From Bacteroidota bacterium (lineage in GTDB: Bacteria; Bacteroidota; Ignavibacteria; Ignavibacteriales; Ignavibacteriaceae): a stretch of DNA of 64,000 bases. A program made the position numbers and the translations under genes. The notes below the pieces were generated by a model. It was given only the letters and a program-made list of their open reading frames with translations. It ran no database searches and was not told the origin of the DNA. Within the stretch, counting starts at the first letter, position 1. Each line of letters starts with the position of its first letter. Shown piece by piece: positions 5,105 through 16,472 of this stretch. The DNA lies in the NCBI GenBank assembly GCA_022564295.1, contig JADFLR010000005.1, positions 1-64,000 of the forward strand. Reading direction: 5' to 3'.

Positions 5105-5584
5105 CTAATTGTTTTGAAATAATTGTTTATAATCTTTACCAATTATTAATGTAACATCTAAAAAATAATTTTTATTCTTTTGATCAATTACCTGTTTTTT
5201 ATCAATACCAATTACTTCTGCCAGGTATTCTGCATTAATAATGTTTCCTGTTCTATCAATAACTATGGAATTATCAATTTTAAACGTTCTGTAGTTGCCT
5301 GTATTAACTACATCAAAATTTTTCTTTCGAAGAGAATCTGTAAACATATCCGCAATACCGTCAACACCGCAGCCGTTTAGAACTTCAATCTGCATATTTT
5401 TTTTATGCTTAACTAATTTATCAATTTCAGAATTCTCTCCAAACACATTCAACTTACTTAGAAGAGAATATCCTAAAAATAAAATAAGAATGGAAAGAAT
5501 AAAAATTGAAATGTTTAGAAATAGATTAGTTGAACGATGCAATGTCCTTTTTTCGGCTTGAACTGTTTCGGGTTTTTCTTTCAC
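5105..5584 (-). CDS. LytR C-terminal-domain membrane protein
   Basis: Single TM, then IEVLNGCGVDGIADMFTDSLRKKNFDVVNTGNY typical of LytR_C. Confidence 0.8.
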   Translation of the reverse strand: MKEKPETVQAEKRTLHRSTNLFLNISIFILSILILFLGYSLLSKLNVFGENSEIDKLVKHKKNMQIEVLNGCGVDGIADMFTDSLRKKNFDVVNTGNYRTFKIDNSIVIDRTGNIINAEYLAEVIGIDKKQVIDQKNKNYFLDVTLIIGKDYKQLFQNN

Positions 5585-5619
5585 TCAGTCTTCTTTACAC
5601 CTGCTTACATAAATTAAAA

Positions 5620-6123
5620 TCATCTTTGAAAAACCGATTCGCCACCCGTACTATTACGATAAAATGGGTTTCCATAAAACCCGCTTCCCGATCCAAAATA
5701 AGAATTGTAATAAGGTAGATTGCTATACTGAATTGAAATTTGCATATCCTTGAACGGATAATAATTGATCGCTGCCCTGCTGATATAGATTCCGTTTATA
5801 TTGTTTTGAAAATTTTGACCAAATGAACTGTAAGGAGAATAAAGTATGCTTACATCCATCTGTACATTTAGATTGCTCATCAGCTTATAAAACATACTAT
5901 TTGTGTAACTTCCCAATGAGGTGCCGTATCCGCCAAAAGATGTATAGGAAAGAGAAAACGAATGCCTCATCCGGAAATTTTCAGAATTTAAAAATCCAAA
6001 TGCAAACCCTGAAGATTGATCAACAATGCCTTCCTTAACTTTCGGTTGATTCAAACCATCGTCCCTGAATTGACCGAATGCAGAAAGCGAAATAACGATT
6101 AATATTAAAAATAGTTTTGTCAT
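5620..6123 (-). CDS. Secreted/outer-membrane hypothetical protein
   Basis: Start re-assigned to M19 of the track ORF (MTKLFLILIVISLSAFGQ signal peptide). Confidence 0.65.
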   Translation of the reverse strand: MTKLFLILIVISLSAFGQFRDDGLNQPKVKEGIVDQSSGFAFGFLNSENFRMRHSFSLSYTSFGGYGTSLGSYTNSMFYKLMSNLNVQMDVSILYSPYSSFGQNFQNNINGIYISRAAINYYPFKDMQISIQYSNLPYYNSYFGSGSGFYGNPFYRNSTGGESVFQR

Positions 6124-6275
6124 TTGAAACTTATAAATGTGCATAAGGATAATATATAAATCCATCTCTAAAATCAATGGTAAATATAGTTAACAAATCT
6201 ATCTCAAAAAATCCCGAAAAATCCTCCTTTGCCCTTGATTAAATGAAAATGTGTGTTATATTTACACAATAATTT

Positions 6276-6371
6276 ATGAAAAAGAATAGCAAAACATATT
6301 ATCGTTCATTTTCATCCGTAAATATTAATGGATGGTGGTGGGGAATAACGAGCATTAATATGTCCTGGTGA
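6276..6371 (+). CDS. trpL: Trp operon leader peptide MKKNSKTYYRSFSSVNINGWWWGITSINMSW
   Basis: 31 codons directly upstream of trpE with three tandem Trp codons (6333-6341) and a fourth at 6366-6368, followed by a terminator hairpin. Confidence 0.9.
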   Translation: MKKNSKTYYRSFSSVNINGWWWGITSINMSW

Positions 6372-6395
6372 TTCTGAGTAAATACTAATTTTTTC

Positions 6396-6430
6396 AAACC
6401 CTTCTCAGTACACTGGGAAGGGTTTTTTTA
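6396..6430 (+). terminator. Attenuator terminator of the trp operon
   Basis: AAACCCTTCTCAG-TACA-CTGGGAAGGGTTT (13-bp stem, one G:T) followed by TTTTATT. Confidence 0.92.
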
Positions 6431-6442
6431 TTATCTGTAGAG

Positions 6443-7924
6443 ATGGAAATGGATTTCAATATATTTAATTCGTTAGCAAAAGAATATAACCTAATTCCTG
6501 TTTATGAATTAATGACAGCTGATATGCTTACCCCCGTCATTGCATATTTGAAGATCAGGCAAAAAGGCAAGTATAATTTTCTTTTAGAATCTGTTGAGGG
6601 TTCGGAAAATCTTTCAAGGTATTCTTTTATTGGAAGAAATCCTGCTTATGTTTTCAGCAATAAGGGTGAATTAATTACAATTAGAAACCAAACAAAGGCA
6701 TCACAGATAAACAAAAGCATTTTTGATTTTATCAGGCAAGAGTTGAAAATTTACCGGCATCCAATTATAGATGATCTGCCCGATTTTACCGGAGGAGTTG
6801 TTGGTTATTTTGGTTATGAAAATTCTTCGCTGATTGAAAGTGTATTGAAAAAAGAGATGAAAAAAACCGATCAGCCGGATTCTATTTTTGGTTTTTACGA
6901 TACTATACTTGCATTCGATCATTTTAAACATCAAATAATACTTATAACAAATGTTAAGATTGAAAATGATACAAACCTCAAACAAGAATACGAAGCCGCA
7001 AAACAAAGACTATCCATTCTTAAAACTGAATTACAAAAGCCTTTTACTTATTCATCCGACTTTAAATTAACAAACAAACTGCAAGAAGATTTTGATCCGA
7101 CTGAGTTTTACAAGCAGGTTGAATCGGGTAAAGAACATATTTATGAGGGTGATATATTTCAGATTGTAATTTCAAAAAGATTTTCAGCAAGATTTTCAGG
7201 TGATCTTTTAAATGTTTACAGAGCTCTTAGAATTATTAATCCATCTCCCTATATGTACTTTCTCGAATTCGAAAATGATTTTTCTGTAATAGGAACTTCA
7301 CCTGAAGACCTGCTAAAAGTGAAGAATGGTGTTGCCCAGGTTCTACCGATTGCAGGAACAAGAAGACGGGGAAAAACAAATGAGGAGGATCTTGCATTAG
7401 AAAAAGATTTAATGAAAGATGAAAAAGAATTAGCCGAACACACGATGCTTGTTGACCTTGGAAGAAATGATCTTGGAAGAGTTTGTAAATACGGAACTGT
7501 GAAAGTTACTGAGAATATGAAAGTCCATCGTTACTCACACGTAATGCATATAGTATCGAAGGTTGAGGGCATTATATCTGATGATAAAGATTCAATTGAT
7601 GCACTTAAATCATGCTTCCCTGCCGGAACAGTAACCGGGGCACCGAAAATCCGTGCAATGCAACTCATAAGCAAGTATGAAAAGTCTGCCAGAAATGTTT
7701 ATGCTGGTGCGGTTGGTTATTTTGATTTCTCAGGCAATCTTGATATGTGCATCGCAATCAGAACATTGTTTGCAAAAGAAAATACAATTTATTGGCAGGC
7801 AGGTGCAGGTATAGTTGCAGACAGCAAACCAAACCTGGAAGCAAAGGAAATAAAAAATAAATCGGCAGCATTAGTTAAAGCGTTAAAATTTGCAGAGGTA
7901 TTGGATGAAAATTTTAGTAATTGA
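6443..7924 (+). CDS. trpE: Anthranilate synthase component I
   Basis: PIAGTRRRGKTNEED, SCFPAGTVTGAPKIRAMQ, QAGAGIVADS. Confidence 0.97.
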   Translation: MEMDFNIFNSLAKEYNLIPVYELMTADMLTPVIAYLKIRQKGKYNFLLESVEGSENLSRYSFIGRNPAYVFSNKGELITIRNQTKASQINKSIFDFIRQELKIYRHPIIDDLPDFTGGVVGYFGYENSSLIESVLKKEMKKTDQPDSIFGFYDTILAFDHFKHQIILITNVKIENDTNLKQEYEAAKQRLSILKTELQKPFTYSSDFKLTNKLQEDFDPTEFYKQVESGKEHIYEGDIFQIVISKRFSARFSGDLLNVYRALRIINPSPYMYFLEFENDFSVIGTSPEDLLKVKNGVAQVLPIAGTRRRGKTNEEDLALEKDLMKDEKELAEHTMLVDLGRNDLGRVCKYGTVKVTENMKVHRYSHVMHIVSKVEGIISDDKDSIDALKSCFPAGTVTGAPKIRAMQLISKYEKSARNVYAGAVGYFDFSGNLDMCIAIRTLFAKENTIYWQAGAGIVADSKPNLEAKEIKNKSAALVKALKFAEVLDENFSN

Positions 7925-8471
7925 TAACTACGATTCCTTTACGTACAATCTTGTTCAGTTGTTGGGTAAAGAAGTAAGTTCGATCATCGTTAAGCGAAAT
8001 GATAAGATTACAGTTAAGGAAATCGCAAAATTAAATCCGGATAAAATACTTATTTCACCGGGACCCGGTAAACCGGAAGATTCAAATGTATCCCTGGCTT
8101 GCATAAAAGAGTTTGGAAGTAAGCTTCCTATTCTTGGAGTATGTTTAGGTCATCAGGCAATAGGAATAGCTTTTGGCGGAAAGGTAATTAAAGCGCCAAA
8201 ATTAATGCATGGTAAAACATCGCTAATGAATCATGATAAAAAAACGATATTCAAGAATATCCCGCAAAAATTTAATGCTACACGATACCACTCATTGATA
8301 ATTGATCATGATTCTTTGCCTAGTGAACTAGAAATTAGTGCTCGTACGGATGATAATGTGATAATGGGAATTAGACATAAGACATTTCCAATCGAAGGAA
8401 TTCAATTTCATCCGGAATCGATTTTAACAGATGAAGGTAAAAATATTATTAGCAACTGGGTTCAATTATGA
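7905..8471 (+). CDS. trpG: Anthranilate synthase component II (glutamine amidotransferase)
   Basis: MKILVIDNYDSFTYN, PGPGKPED, GVCLGHQAIG, IQFHPESI; start moved to 7905, overlapping the trpE end. Confidence 0.96.
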   Translation: MKILVIDNYDSFTYNLVQLLGKEVSSIIVKRNDKITVKEIAKLNPDKILISPGPGKPEDSNVSLACIKEFGSKLPILGVCLGHQAIGIAFGGKVIKAPKLMHGKTSLMNHDKKTIFKNIPQKFNATRYHSLIIDHDSLPSELEISARTDDNVIMGIRHKTFPIEGIQFHPESILTDEGKNIISNWVQL

Positions 8472-9487
8472 TAAAGAAAATGCTGCTAAAATTAATAGAT
8501 GGTAAAAATTTAAGTCTAGAAGAATCTACAAATGTGATGAATGAAATAATGACCGGGAAAGTGAACCCTTCTTTGCTGTCGGGAATATTAGTTGCATTAA
8601 AATCGAAAGGAGAAATAGCAGAAGAAATTGCCGGTTTTGCTTTAGCCATGAGGGAGAACAGCATCAAACTTAATAATACAGATGATAATGTAATAGATGT
8701 TTGCGGAACAGGTGGTGATAGTTCCGGAACTTTTAATATCTCAACTGCTGCAGCGTTTGTGGTTGCAGGTGCAGGAGTAAAAGTAGCAAAGCATGGCAAC
8801 AGATCGATTTCAAGTAATTGTGGAAGTGCGGATGTTTTAACCGAGCTTGGTGTGAATATTAATCTGCCTGTAGAACAATCTGCAAAAGCACTTGAAGAAA
8901 TTGGAATAACATTTTTATTTGCTCCTAAATTTCACCCGGCAATGAAACATGCAGCACATGTTAGAAGAGAATTAGGGATGAAAACCATTTTTAATTTACT
9001 TGGTCCGTTAACAAATCCTGCAGGAGTTAAAAAACAGATCATCGGAGCATACAGTGATAATACGGTGAAATTACTTTCACAGGCAGCACACTATCTTGAG
9101 TTTGATAAAGTATGTTTTTTATGTGCGGGGAATAAGTATGATGAAATTATTCTCGATCAAAAAACAAAAATGATAGAATACAACAATGATGGTTTAACCG
9201 AAACAGAAATAAGTGCTGCAACTTTCGGTTATCCGGAAGTTAGTGTAAGTGAGATTCAAGGTGGAGATGTTAAAGACAATGCTCAAATAATTTTAGAAAT
9301 ATTTAAGAACAAAAATCGCAATGGTGCATTTCACACAGTCTGTGCAAATGCTGCGGTTGCACTTTATTCAGCAGGTGTTTCCGATGACCTGAAGAAGTGC
9401 AAAAATGCTGCTGAAGAATCAATATTAACAGGTGCGGCGTACAATAAATTGAAAAGTTTGATTGAGATTGGAAATGCTGCAGAGTAA
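8468..9487 (+). CDS. trpD: Anthranilate phosphoribosyltransferase
   Basis: DVCGTGGDSSGTFNIST, GNRSISSNCGSADVLTELG. Confidence 0.97.
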   Translation: MIKKMLLKLIDGKNLSLEESTNVMNEIMTGKVNPSLLSGILVALKSKGEIAEEIAGFALAMRENSIKLNNTDDNVIDVCGTGGDSSGTFNISTAAAFVVAGAGVKVAKHGNRSISSNCGSADVLTELGVNINLPVEQSAKALEEIGITFLFAPKFHPAMKHAAHVRRELGMKTIFNLLGPLTNPAGVKKQIIGAYSDNTVKLLSQAAHYLEFDKVCFLCAGNKYDEIILDQKTKMIEYNNDGLTETEISAATFGYPEVSVSEIQGGDVKDNAQIILEIFKNKNRNGAFHTVCANAAVALYSAGVSDDLKKCKNAAEESILTGAAYNKLKSLIEIGNAAE

Positions 9488-9502
9488 AATTAGAAACGCG
9501 GA

Positions 9503-10297
9503 ATGAACATTTTAAATGAAATATTAGAAGTGAAGAAAAAAGAGGTCTCCGATTTGCGAAGAAAATATTCATTATCATCTTTTACTGAAACCGAGTTTTT
9601 TGAAAAAGAGACTTTAAGCTTTTATAATTCACTTAAAGATAAATCTGAAATGTCTGTAATTGCCGAAATAAAAAAAGCAAGTCCGTCTAAGGGAACAATA
9701 AAAGAAGATTTTGATCACATAGCAATTGCTAAAACATATTTTCATAATGGTGCAAATGCTGTTTCTGTGCTTACCGATGAAAATTTTTTTAAAGGTAAGC
9801 TTGATTATTTAAAAGACATTGCAAGTTTTAAAAGTCTTCCGCTATTAAGAAAAGATTTTATAATTGATGATTATCAAATTTTTCAATCAAAAGCATTTGG
9901 TGCAGATTTTATTTTACTGATAAGTGAAATTCTTTCAAAAAATCAGATAGCCGAATTAACTCATGCCGCCTATGAAATTGGATTGGAAGTTTTGCTGGAA
10001 CTACATTCGGAAGGACAGTTGAATAAAATTGATTTTAATCTTAACAAACTGGTTGGTATTAATAACAGAAACTTAAACGATTTTTCTGTTGACTTAAATA
10101 CCTGTATCAATATTTCTCACTATCTGCCTGAAGGTGTAATGGTTGTTGCAGAATCCGGTATAAACAAAAAATCAGATGTTCAATTACTTAATAAAAGTAA
10201 CATCGATGCAATTCTTGTCGGAGAATATTTAATGCGCAGTGAAAATATTGATGCTGCCTTAGTGCAATTAAAAAAGTGGTGCCGAAATGAAAATTAA
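9503..10297 (+). CDS. trpC: Indole-3-glycerol phosphate synthase
   Basis: VIAEIKKASPSKGTI, LRKDFIIDDYQ, GINNRNL, VAESGI. Confidence 0.97.
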   Translation: MNILNEILEVKKKEVSDLRRKYSLSSFTETEFFEKETLSFYNSLKDKSEMSVIAEIKKASPSKGTIKEDFDHIAIAKTYFHNGANAVSVLTDENFFKGKLDYLKDIASFKSLPLLRKDFIIDDYQIFQSKAFGADFILLISEILSKNQIAELTHAAYEIGLEVLLELHSEGQLNKIDFNLNKLVGINNRNLNDFSVDLNTCINISHYLPEGVMVVAESGINKKSDVQLLNKSNIDAILVGEYLMRSENIDAALVQLKKWCRNEN

Positions 10298-10901
10298 GAT
10301 TTGCGGTATTACGAATATAGAAGACGCTTTGGCTGCTGAATCCTTTGGAGCCGATGCTGTGGGTTTCATCTTTTATAAAAAAAGTAATAGATATGTTTCA
10401 CCAGAGCAAGTAGAGCATATTATAAAAACTTTATCGCCTTTTACAACAAAGGTTGGTGTTTTTGTTAACGAAACTTTTGAGATAATTAATAAAATATCCA
10501 AACAAACAGGGATTAATGTTGTGCAGCTTCACGGAGATGAAAATTTGCATATTATGAAAAGTATTTTGCTACCTGTCATAAAAACTTTTCGGGTTGATGA
10601 TAACTTTGATTACAATAAGTTAAATCAATATCAGGAATATTCAATATTGCTCGATGCTTATTCCGAAAAAAATTACGGTGGAACCGGTAATAAATTAAAC
10701 TGGGAGAAAATCCCTTTTAAAATAAAAAATAAAATTATTCTTGCGGGTGGAATTTCATCAGATAATATTGAAATCATTTATAAAAATATAAATCCGGCAG
10801 CAGTCGATCTTTCTTCTTCCCTGGAAAAAACGCCTGGCAAGAAAGATAAAAAGAAGATGGAAAAGTTTTTTAACAAAGTAAACTTAATAAGGAGACAGTA
10901 A
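10287..10901 (+). CDS. trpF: Phosphoribosylanthranilate isomerase
   Basis: MKIKICGITNIEDA, VQLHGDE, LAGGISSDN. Confidence 0.96.
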   Translation: MKIKICGITNIEDALAAESFGADAVGFIFYKKSNRYVSPEQVEHIIKTLSPFTTKVGVFVNETFEIINKISKQTGINVVQLHGDENLHIMKSILLPVIKTFRVDDNFDYNKLNQYQEYSILLDAYSEKNYGGTGNKLNWEKIPFKIKNKIILAGGISSDNIEIIYKNINPAAVDLSSSLEKTPGKKDKKKMEKFFNKVNLIRRQ

Positions 10902-11941
10902 TGCTGATATTAATGGATCTTAATGCTCCAAGAGAACACATTGAGAAAGTAAAAAAGAAAATCGTTGCTAAGGAATGCACACCGCACGAAATTCCCGGCT
11001 CACGTAAGCTTGCGATCGGTATAACAGGACCTTCGGGTAATCTTTCCATTGAAGATTTTTTAGGAATGGATTCTGTTGATGAAGTACTTCGTGTATCAAA
11101 ACCGTACAAACTGGTTGGCAGAGAAATGAAACCTGATGATACGGTAATTGATTTTGAGAATGCTTCAATCGGTGGAGAGAAACTTACAATTATTGCCGGA
11201 CCATGTTCTGTTGAAAGCAAGGATCAGATATTTGAAGTTGCCGGCTCACTTAAAGAACTGGGAATAAAATTTTTACGTGCCGGAGCATATAAACCTCGTT
11301 CAAGTCCGTACTCTTTTCAGGGATTGAAGGAAAAAGGCATCGAATATCTTGCAGATGTTAAGAGGGAACTTGGAATGAAAATCGTTACTGAAGCAAAAGA
11401 CACACACACATTACCTTTGATAGCTGAAGTTGCTGATATAGTGCAGATTGGTGCGAGAAACATGCAAAATTTTTCACTCCTTGAAGAAGCGGGAAAGATC
11501 AAAAATCCCATCCTTTTAAAAAGAGGTTTGGCTGCAAAGATGGAAGATTTATTAATGAGCGCCGAATATATTCTATCTCAAGGAAACTACAATGTTATTC
11601 TTTGTGAAAGAGGAATACGAACCTTTGAAACCCATACACGAAACACACTTGATTTAAATATTGTTCCTGTAATAAAAAAACATTCTCATCTTCCAATTAT
11701 AGTTGATCCTTCACACGGTGTTGGCATCTGGGATAAAGTAACTCCGATGGCAATGGCTGCCGTGGCTTGCGGTGCCGATGGTTTAATGATTGAAGTACAC
11801 TCGCATCCTGAGGAAGCTCTTTCTGATGGGTTTCAATCTTTAACGATCAAGAATTTTAAGAATCTCTTAGAGAAAATCGAAAAGATTGCTTCGGTAGTAG
11901 ATAAAAGGATAGACAATGAAGAAATCCAGATCAGCAATTGA
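10901..11941 (+). CDS. aroF: 3-deoxy-7-phosphoheptulonate synthase
   Basis: [41 protein letters not shown]; ferredoxin-like N-terminal domain. Confidence 0.95.
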
Positions 11942-13124
11942 AATGCCTGATAGCAGAGGAAAGTTCGGAAAGTATGGTGGAAAATTTGTTCCTGAAACTT
12001 TAATCGCTCCGTTAAAGGAACTTGAATCAACTTACTTATTGATGAAGAAGGATAAACAGTTCAAGAAAGAGTTGATGCAGCTTCATAAAGAATATTCGGG
12101 AAGACCGACTCCACTTACTTTTGCAGATAAATTAACTTCATATTACGGCAAAGGAAAAATTTATCTTAAACGTGAAGATCTTTGTCATACGGGCGCGCAC
12201 AAAATCAACAATACTCTCGGTCAAATTCTGCTCGCAAAAAAATTGGGTAAAACAAGAATAATAGCTGAAACAGGTGCAGGACAGCATGGTGTGGCGACTG
12301 CTACGGTGTGCGCTAAATTTGATTTGGATTGTGTTATTTACATGGGCGAAATTGATATGAAAAGGCAGGAACCAAACGTCTTCCGAATGAAGCTTTTGGG
12401 AGCTGAAGTTGTTAGTGTGAAATCCGGCAGTCAAACATTAAAAGATGCTACAAATGAAGCAATAAGAGATTGGGTAACAAACGTAACAGATACACATTAC
12501 ATAATCGGTTCTGTTGTCGGTCCTCATCCTTATCCAATGATGGTAAGAGATTTTCAGTCTATAATTGGATTGGAAACCAAAAAACAAATTATTGAAAAAG
12601 AAAATAAAGAACCTGATTACATTATTGCCTGCGTTGGCGGCGGAAGTAATGCAATAGGAATTTTTTATCCTTTCATTAATGGTAAGGTTAAACTAATTGG
12701 TGTGGAAGCTGCTGGTTACGGTTTGGATTCAAACAAACATTGCGCGACTTTAACTCTTGGCAGAGTAGGAATTTTTCATGGGATGAAAACATGTCTTCTT
12801 CAAACAGATGATGGGCAGATTTCCGAAGTTCATTCAATTTCCGCAGGACTCGATTACCCTGGCGTTGGACCTGAACATAGTTACTTAAAAGATAATTTTT
12901 TAGTTGAATACGATTCCATAACAGATGACGAAGCATTAAGTGCGGTAAAACTTCTTGCACAAACTGAAGGAATAATTCCAGCATTAGAAACCGCTCATGC
13001 TATAGCATACCTCGAAAAACTTTTACCTAAAACTAGTAAAGATGAAATTATTGTTTTAAATGTAAGCGGAAGGGGTGATAAAGATCTTTCAATTATAATG
13101 GATTCATACGGGGATAAAATTTGA
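11916..13124 (+). CDS. trpB: Tryptophan synthase beta chain
   Basis: [41 protein letters not shown]. Confidence 0.98.
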
Positions 13125-13912
13125 AATCAAAAATTTCGAAATATATTGAGGATAAAAATACGAAGGGAGAAAAAATCCTTTCGGTTTTTTTAACTTCCGG
13201 TTTCCCCGAAAAGGATCATTTTGTTGAACTTGCACTAAATGTTTTAGCTGCCGGTGCGGATATGCTTGAGATCGGTTTTCCATTTAGCGATCCCATAGCA
13301 GACGGACCAATTATTCAACAGTCATCACAAACAGCTTTGAGCAATGGAATTGATCTCCTTAAAACATTGAAGTACGTTAAAGAGATTAACGAGCATACTG
13401 ATAAACCAATTATTCTTATGGGATATGCTAATCCTTTATTGAGTTACGGCTTAGAAAAGTTCGCAGATGATTCGAAGAGAATTGGAGTTGATGGATTGAT
13501 TGTTCCCGATATTCCGCTGGATGAATATGATAACTTTTTCACATCCAAATTTGATGGGACAGATATAATTCTTTTAATCACTCCTACCACACCAATCGGA
13601 AGAATAAAAATGATCGATGATAAAAGCTCGGGATTTGTTTATTGTGTAAGTGTTATTGGCATTACAGGCGCCCTAAAAACAACAGATACAGATAATCTTC
13701 AATTTATAAAAAATGCTTATGAACAATGCACAAACAACAGAGTTCTTGTTGGTTTTGGAATTTCATCCGTTGAAGATGTAAAATATTATAAGCCGCATTG
13801 TGACGGTGTAATTGTAGGCAGCGCTGTTATTAAATCACTAATGAATGATAATAGCAAATATCAGAAAACATTAGAGTTGGTTCGTAATTTGAAAAGTGGT
13901 TTGATAAATTAG
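13121..13912 (+). CDS. trpA: Tryptophan synthase alpha chain
   Basis: [39 protein letters not shown]; starts with TTG or GTG-type position as given by track. Confidence 0.96.
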
Positions 13913-16416: not shown

Positions 16417-16437
16417 TTGTAGTTCGGGTTTAAATAA

Positions 16438-16472
16438 AAAAACCCTTATCAGAATACTGACAAGGGTTTCTT
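16438..16472 (-). terminator. Intrinsic terminator of the LysM-protein gene
   Basis: Minus strand AAACCCTTGTCAGTATTCTGATAAGGGTTTTTTTATTT. Confidence 0.8.

Follow-up and report, generated by a model that had tools for sequence, protein, structure and literature searches.

Positions 6276 to 6430 of the window (the whole 64,000-nt stretch of DNA analysed here) very probably constitute, on the plus strand, a ribosome-mediated transcription attenuator of the trp operon. This assignment, made from sequence and calculated folding, is based on a conserved ORF with Trp codons directly upstream of trp genes, an intrinsic terminator before the first gene, and an antiterminator which, by calculation, excludes the terminator, its strand being masked by a ribosome at the leader stop and free when the ribosome stands at the Trp codons. 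The region can adopt three mutually exclusive helices, all displaying compensatory changes in 35 relatives, and the covariation signal was lost in all three when the partner strands were slid by 1-3 columns. An attenuator had already been proposed at this place in the initial annotation, and this reading was supported here, except that the anti-antiterminator helix had been missed.

The leader ORF (6276-6371, plus strand) starts with ATG at 6276, encodes a peptide of 31 aa (MKKNSKTYYRSFSSVNINGWWWGITSINMSW) and ends with a TGA stop codon at 6369-6371, located inside the antiterminator strand; it is conserved in the family. Its predicted sensor is a run of three Trp codons (6333-6341, plus strand), and 39 of 45 family leaders carry WWW or a longer run. 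Both the leader and its Trp run had been placed correctly in the initial annotation, which also pointed to a terminal Trp codon. The latter does occur at 6366-6368, yet it was found in only 2 of the 45 family leaders, those of the window and its closest relative, and is thus incidental; its candidacy as a second sensor was rejected. At this position, TCC TGG TGA retains the antiterminator pairing of ACC CAG TGA by means of G-U pairs. The first controlled gene is trpE (6443-7924, plus strand; TIGR00564 above cut-off), whose true start is probably 6449 rather than 6443, since the closest relative has a TGA between both candidate starts. It is followed by trpG, trpD, trpC, trpF, a DAHP synthase gene, trpB and trpA (7890-13912, plus strand), completing the trp operon. 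The DAHP synthase gene lies at 10901-11941, between trpF and trpB, so Trp attenuation would extend to the enzyme that opens the entire aromatic pathway. Among the named trpE loci, those nearest to the trpE of the window belong to Ignavibacteria.

Of 80 genomes from the same GTDB family, 48 yielded a trpE gene, and 47 upstream regions were analysed; codon counts were based on 45 extracted leaders and covariation on an alignment of 35. A strict automatic test, requiring an ATG-started leader with WW followed by a strong terminator within 90 nt, was passed by 43 of the 47 regions, as compared to none of 1,880 dinucleotide shuffles and none of 47 reverse strands. The four failures comprised two loci (L058 and L066) having WWW leaders and a hairpin that differs or is weaker, and two (L039 and L068) having short ORFs with two separated Trp codons and a hairpin. 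In the rest of the order, leaders with at least two Trp codons, often in the form WAWWW, were present at all 23 loci examined. Within the class, families outside the order with such leaders were f7, f14, f20, f24 and part of f5, and none were detected at trpE in f10, f18 and f19. WWW leaders also occur in several other Bacteroidota families. Conservation of the Trp codons and hairpins among relatives, the absence of which would have spoken against the initial annotation, was confirmed by the alignment.

Upstream of the leader, a promoter-like element is formed by TTGATT (6235-6240) and TATATTTA (6257-6264, to be compared with the Bacteroidota -7 consensus TAnnTTTG), separated by 16 nt (6235-6264 as a whole, plus strand); relatives exhibit TTGAC and TATATTTGCA at equal spacing. 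At 35 of 45 loci, the distance from the end of a TAnnTTWR element to the leader ATG is 8-13 nt, in most cases 10-12 nt. Because transcripts of Flavobacterium johnsoniae start 4-5 nt past the -7 element (PMC6847099), transcription is predicted to begin at about 6269-6270, which gives the leader a predicted 5' UTR of no more than 6-7 nt. Among the 5' UTRs of Bacteroides thetaiotaomicron, those with fewer than 10 nt make up only about 3.7% (PMC7366714). A start downstream of 6371 had been named as incompatible with attenuation; the predicted start lies upstream of the leader.

The terminator (6396-6425, plus strand) is a 13-bp hairpin with arms 6396-6408 and 6413-6425, a UACA loop and an adjacent T-run, exactly where the initial annotation had placed it. 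Of three terminator-like sites in 5500-7000, a region for which the shuffle mean was 1.0, it is the strongest. In the 35 relatives, 99.3% of cells are paired and 7 of 12 pairs have changed on both sides; region 6270-6432 folds 5.5 SD better than its dinucleotide shuffles. Could this hairpin be an ordinary terminator, or belong to an RNA-protein switch (TRAP-like, T-box or riboswitch) next to an untranslated small ORF? Bacteroidota lack Shine-Dalgarno sites, which makes translation unreadable from sequence. However, the position and number of Trp codons are conserved across otherwise diverged leaders, there was no Rfam match to a T-box or another switch, and the interval from the promoter element to trpE contains no gene that an ordinary terminator could serve, so that this explanation is extremely improbable. 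A further terminator-like hairpin occurs in the window at 16437-16472 (AAACCCTTGTCAG/CTGATAAGGGTTT), between an upstream gene and a minus-strand PhoH-like gene. It resembles the trp terminator and was matched by our covariance model, without a leader ORF.

The antiterminator strand (6363-6378, plus strand), identified by covariation and pairing energies, reads UCCUGGUG-auu-CUGAG and pairs with CUCAG-ua-CACUGGGA, 6363-6370 facing 6411-6418 and 6374-6378 facing 6404-6408. The pairing of GGTG-ATT-CTGAG (6367-6378) with CTCAG-TA-CAC (6404-6413), as first described, is exact but incomplete, for the helix reaches further outward. In relatives, the strand is often ACCCAGUG plus UUGAGA, with CACUGGG(A) and UCUCAG as partners, and 82% of cells are paired in the 35 aligned leaders, 7 of 13 pairs having changed on both sides. 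The region of the leader stop is thereby predicted to capture the terminator loop and 3' arm, together with the top of the 5' arm. An E. coli-type wiring, in which only CUCAG of the 5' arm (6404-6408) is taken and complementarity to the loop and 3' arm arises incidentally, can draw on the inner helix CUGAG/CUCAG, which exists and covaries (double changes in 4 of 5 pairs), and on sister family f41 of the same phylum, where pairing is with the 5' arm. Yet this inner helix alone is worth only -3.5 kcal/mol in the window. Averaged over 74 class loci, pairing of the segment downstream of the Trp codons with the loop and 3' arm amounts to -11.8 kcal/mol (-6.5 when shuffled, -9.1 when swapped), as opposed to -5.3 kcal/mol with the 5' arm alone (-4.4 when shuffled). 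Pairing chiefly with the 5' arm was thus not found over these loci, and such a wiring appears unlikely. Capture of the loop and 3' arm extends in some members of the order to 12 unbroken pairs, as with UUCCCGGUGAAU and AUUCACCGGGAA of L077, and its details vary: at L061-type loci, the ungapped antiterminator helix as drawn scores poorly. In f41 the situation is reversed, with 5'-arm pairing at -13.6 to -18.6 kcal/mol. The f41 loci (L227-L238) have a different type of trpE leader (..WWWP....SG..), whose conserved CAGUGGG pairs with the terminator 5' arm CCCACUG, which is the classical wiring.

The third helix (1:2) joins strand 1 (6289-6301, plus strand), written in leader codons 5-9 as part of a conserved (G/E)(T/S)YY motif, to the leader end (6356-6368, plus strand). 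Both strands were identified by their compensatory changes, and the second overlaps the antiterminator strand, which this helix is predicted to mask. In the window, mainly an 8-bp core pairs (ACATATTA, 6294-6301). Across the 35 aligned leaders, its 13 pairs are 83.7% paired and 8 of them have changed on both sides, with variants such as CTGAGTCAT with ATGACTCAG, TATCG with CGATA, and CATATCA with TGATATG. Cells with double changes numbered 44 in the 1:2 helix and 22 in the antiterminator, against 18.1 and 7.0 in shuffles, respectively, counts that overstate the evidence because relatives share ancestry. Strands from the same locus pair better than strands exchanged between loci, and at L061, L065 and L067 the antiterminator and terminator strands have been replaced together; of all this evidence, the joint replacement seen in L061 and its relatives suffers least from shared ancestry. 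Reading the Tyr codons of the motif as a second sensor, through which an operon including DAHP synthase would also respond to tyrosine, might explain the fixed place of the motif in 36 of 45 family leaders and the presence of DAHP synthase within the operon. The same bases, however, show covariation with the leader end in the manner of an RNA helix, and the second Tyr codon is AAC, CGC, CGT, CAA or TTT in several loci. The GTYY motif was therefore rejected as a tyrosine sensor, a role that is very unlikely, in favour of the RNA helix, which explains it better.

Taken together, these elements suggest how the switch would operate. Transcription would begin a few bases before the leader ATG, allowing early loading of a ribosome. 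With ample charged tRNA-Trp, this ribosome would reach the stop codon (6369-6371) and cover the antiterminator strand; the terminator (6396-6425) would then form and transcription would stop before trpE. When charged tRNA-Trp is scarce, a ribosome stalled on WWW (6333-6341) would leave 6363-6378 free to pair first with the emerging CUCAG of the 5' arm and next with the loop and the first half of the 3' arm, so that the terminator is blocked and the operon would be read. In the absence of translation, codons 5-9 would pair with the leader end and mask the antiterminator strand, leading to termination by default; this 1:2 helix may also pause the polymerase. Folding with ribosome masking, the check proposed along with the initial annotation, is in agreement with this scheme: as calculated, only the terminator forms with the ribosome at the stop, the antiterminator is favoured on the growing transcript with the ribosome at WWW, where RNA is free from about 6352, and the 1:2 helix and the terminator form together without a ribosome. 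When the transcript is lengthened while the ribosome stays at WWW, the antiterminator comes out as the optimal structure at most 3' ends between 6414 and 6420, and the terminator overtakes it only once 6421-6425 have emerged. At full length, the terminator is favoured (-19.4 versus -14.7 kcal/mol), even with a stalled ribosome. Since the terminator is the more stable structure at equilibrium, switching has to depend on kinetics. Given the geometry, with the end of strand 1 lying some 30 nt 5' of the Trp codons, a ribosome stalled on WWW would be expected to hold strand 1 away from strand 2. From these data we infer the start site, the ribosome positions and the kinetic competition, as well as a response of read-through to charged tRNA-Trp, leader translation and tryptophan.

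In the trp attenuator of E. coli, the Trp codons are located within strand 1, and it is the 5' arm of the terminator that pairs in the antiterminator. The system described here shares with it (RF00513) a leader with Trp codons, a stop codon in strand 2 and mutually exclusive anti-antiterminator, antiterminator and terminator, but differs by a strand 1 that ends well before the Trp codons and by an antiterminator that takes mainly the loop and 3' arm. The Rfam model RF00513 (Trp_leader) gave no match above its gathering score in the window, and other Rfam leaders searched at relaxed thresholds (His_leader, Phe_leader, L10_leader and others) produced weak matches far below cut-offs. The Bacteroid-trp motif (RF01692), listed by Weinberg et al. 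2010 (PMC2864571), is associated with the same phylum and likewise combines a WWW leader before trpE with a terminator; in the two members examined (L255 and L256), the leader-stop region also seems to pair with the loop and 3' arm. Its leaders are shorter, of about 14-18 aa after the ATG used. With a gathering score of 49 bits, RF01692 had no match in the window, none above cut-off in the 80 family genomes and, in the genome carrying the window, none even at E <= 1. In a phylum-wide sample of 148 genomes it matched 11, each of them from family f39, and the control, Bacteroides ihuae, was positive. Actinobacterial trp attenuators, with repeated UGG codons, a terminator and GC-rich triples (gGCC-rGCy-GGCC), resemble this one in having complementary triples with one strand serving two helices, but belong to another phylum and contrast with the ACCCAGUG and CACUGGG pairing found here (PMC1262725). 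No paper on this element was found in the open-access literature. The function is thus of a known kind, the sequence family is absent from Rfam, and the wiring is somewhat unusual.

Our covariance model also matched other leader attenuators in the family, where genes were named from a profile scan where scanned and otherwise by eye. No second Trp attenuator was retained in the genome carrying the window, the matches examined being a Cys leader, plain terminators or coding sequence; a listing of TGGTGGTGG in this genome gave 44 sites. The Cys leader (MNSHNYIDLSCTCCSKSNRGKDSYI; L214, contig C13, 27646-27777) is followed by a terminator and by a gene that is beta-carbonic anhydrase-like by eye, with no NCBIfam match in the stretch scanned. 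Two loci (L217 and L221) have Cys-rich leaders (TCCCLSS... and NCCCCCKTC) and a terminator before cysteine synthase, and their leader end GGAAGGGC pairs with the terminator 5' arm GCCCTTCC. In genus g5 of the same family, seven loci (L206-L211 and L218) display leaders with CCCC and MMM, such as MKNKIVNIKKELNHKAMCCCCMMMCRSSRKDTA, plus a terminator; 21-47 nt separate this leader terminator from the beginning of a SAM riboswitch (RF00162), which seems to have a terminator of its own. These tandem arrangements (MCCCCMMM leader plus RF00162), which precede the gene for O-acetylhomoserine sulfhydrylase (at L207 and related loci) or cysH (at L206), seem to constitute a two-input switch combining Cys/Met-tRNA with SAM. 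A His leader (MKTTNLYHHHFHTCSRARWK) with a terminator precedes hisG in two genomes of the window's genus (L212 and L213), and a WWWW leader (MKIIKQTANISKMTQNWWWWSKELRCLP) precedes a second, trpB-like gene (by eye) in another genus of the family (L219).

It is conceivable, though we advance this only tentatively, that Ignavibacteria possess a distinct attenuator architecture on nearly leaderless transcripts, combining capture of the loop and 3' arm with a third helix whose 5' strand is written in N-terminal codons; that related leaders serve Trp, His and Cys; and that Cys/Met leaders in series with SAM riboswitches act as two-input switches of sulfur metabolism. The present data extend covariation-supported trp attenuation to a Bacteroidota order beyond the reach of the phylum's Rfam model. 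They also suggest that members of a single phylum connect the same Trp sensor to the 5' arm of the terminator in some cases and to its 3' arm in others, a contrast well suited to studying how termination is decided by folding during transcription. Finally, with a predicted 5' UTR of so few nucleotides in a phylum devoid of Shine-Dalgarno sites, early coupling of translation to transcription becomes testable.
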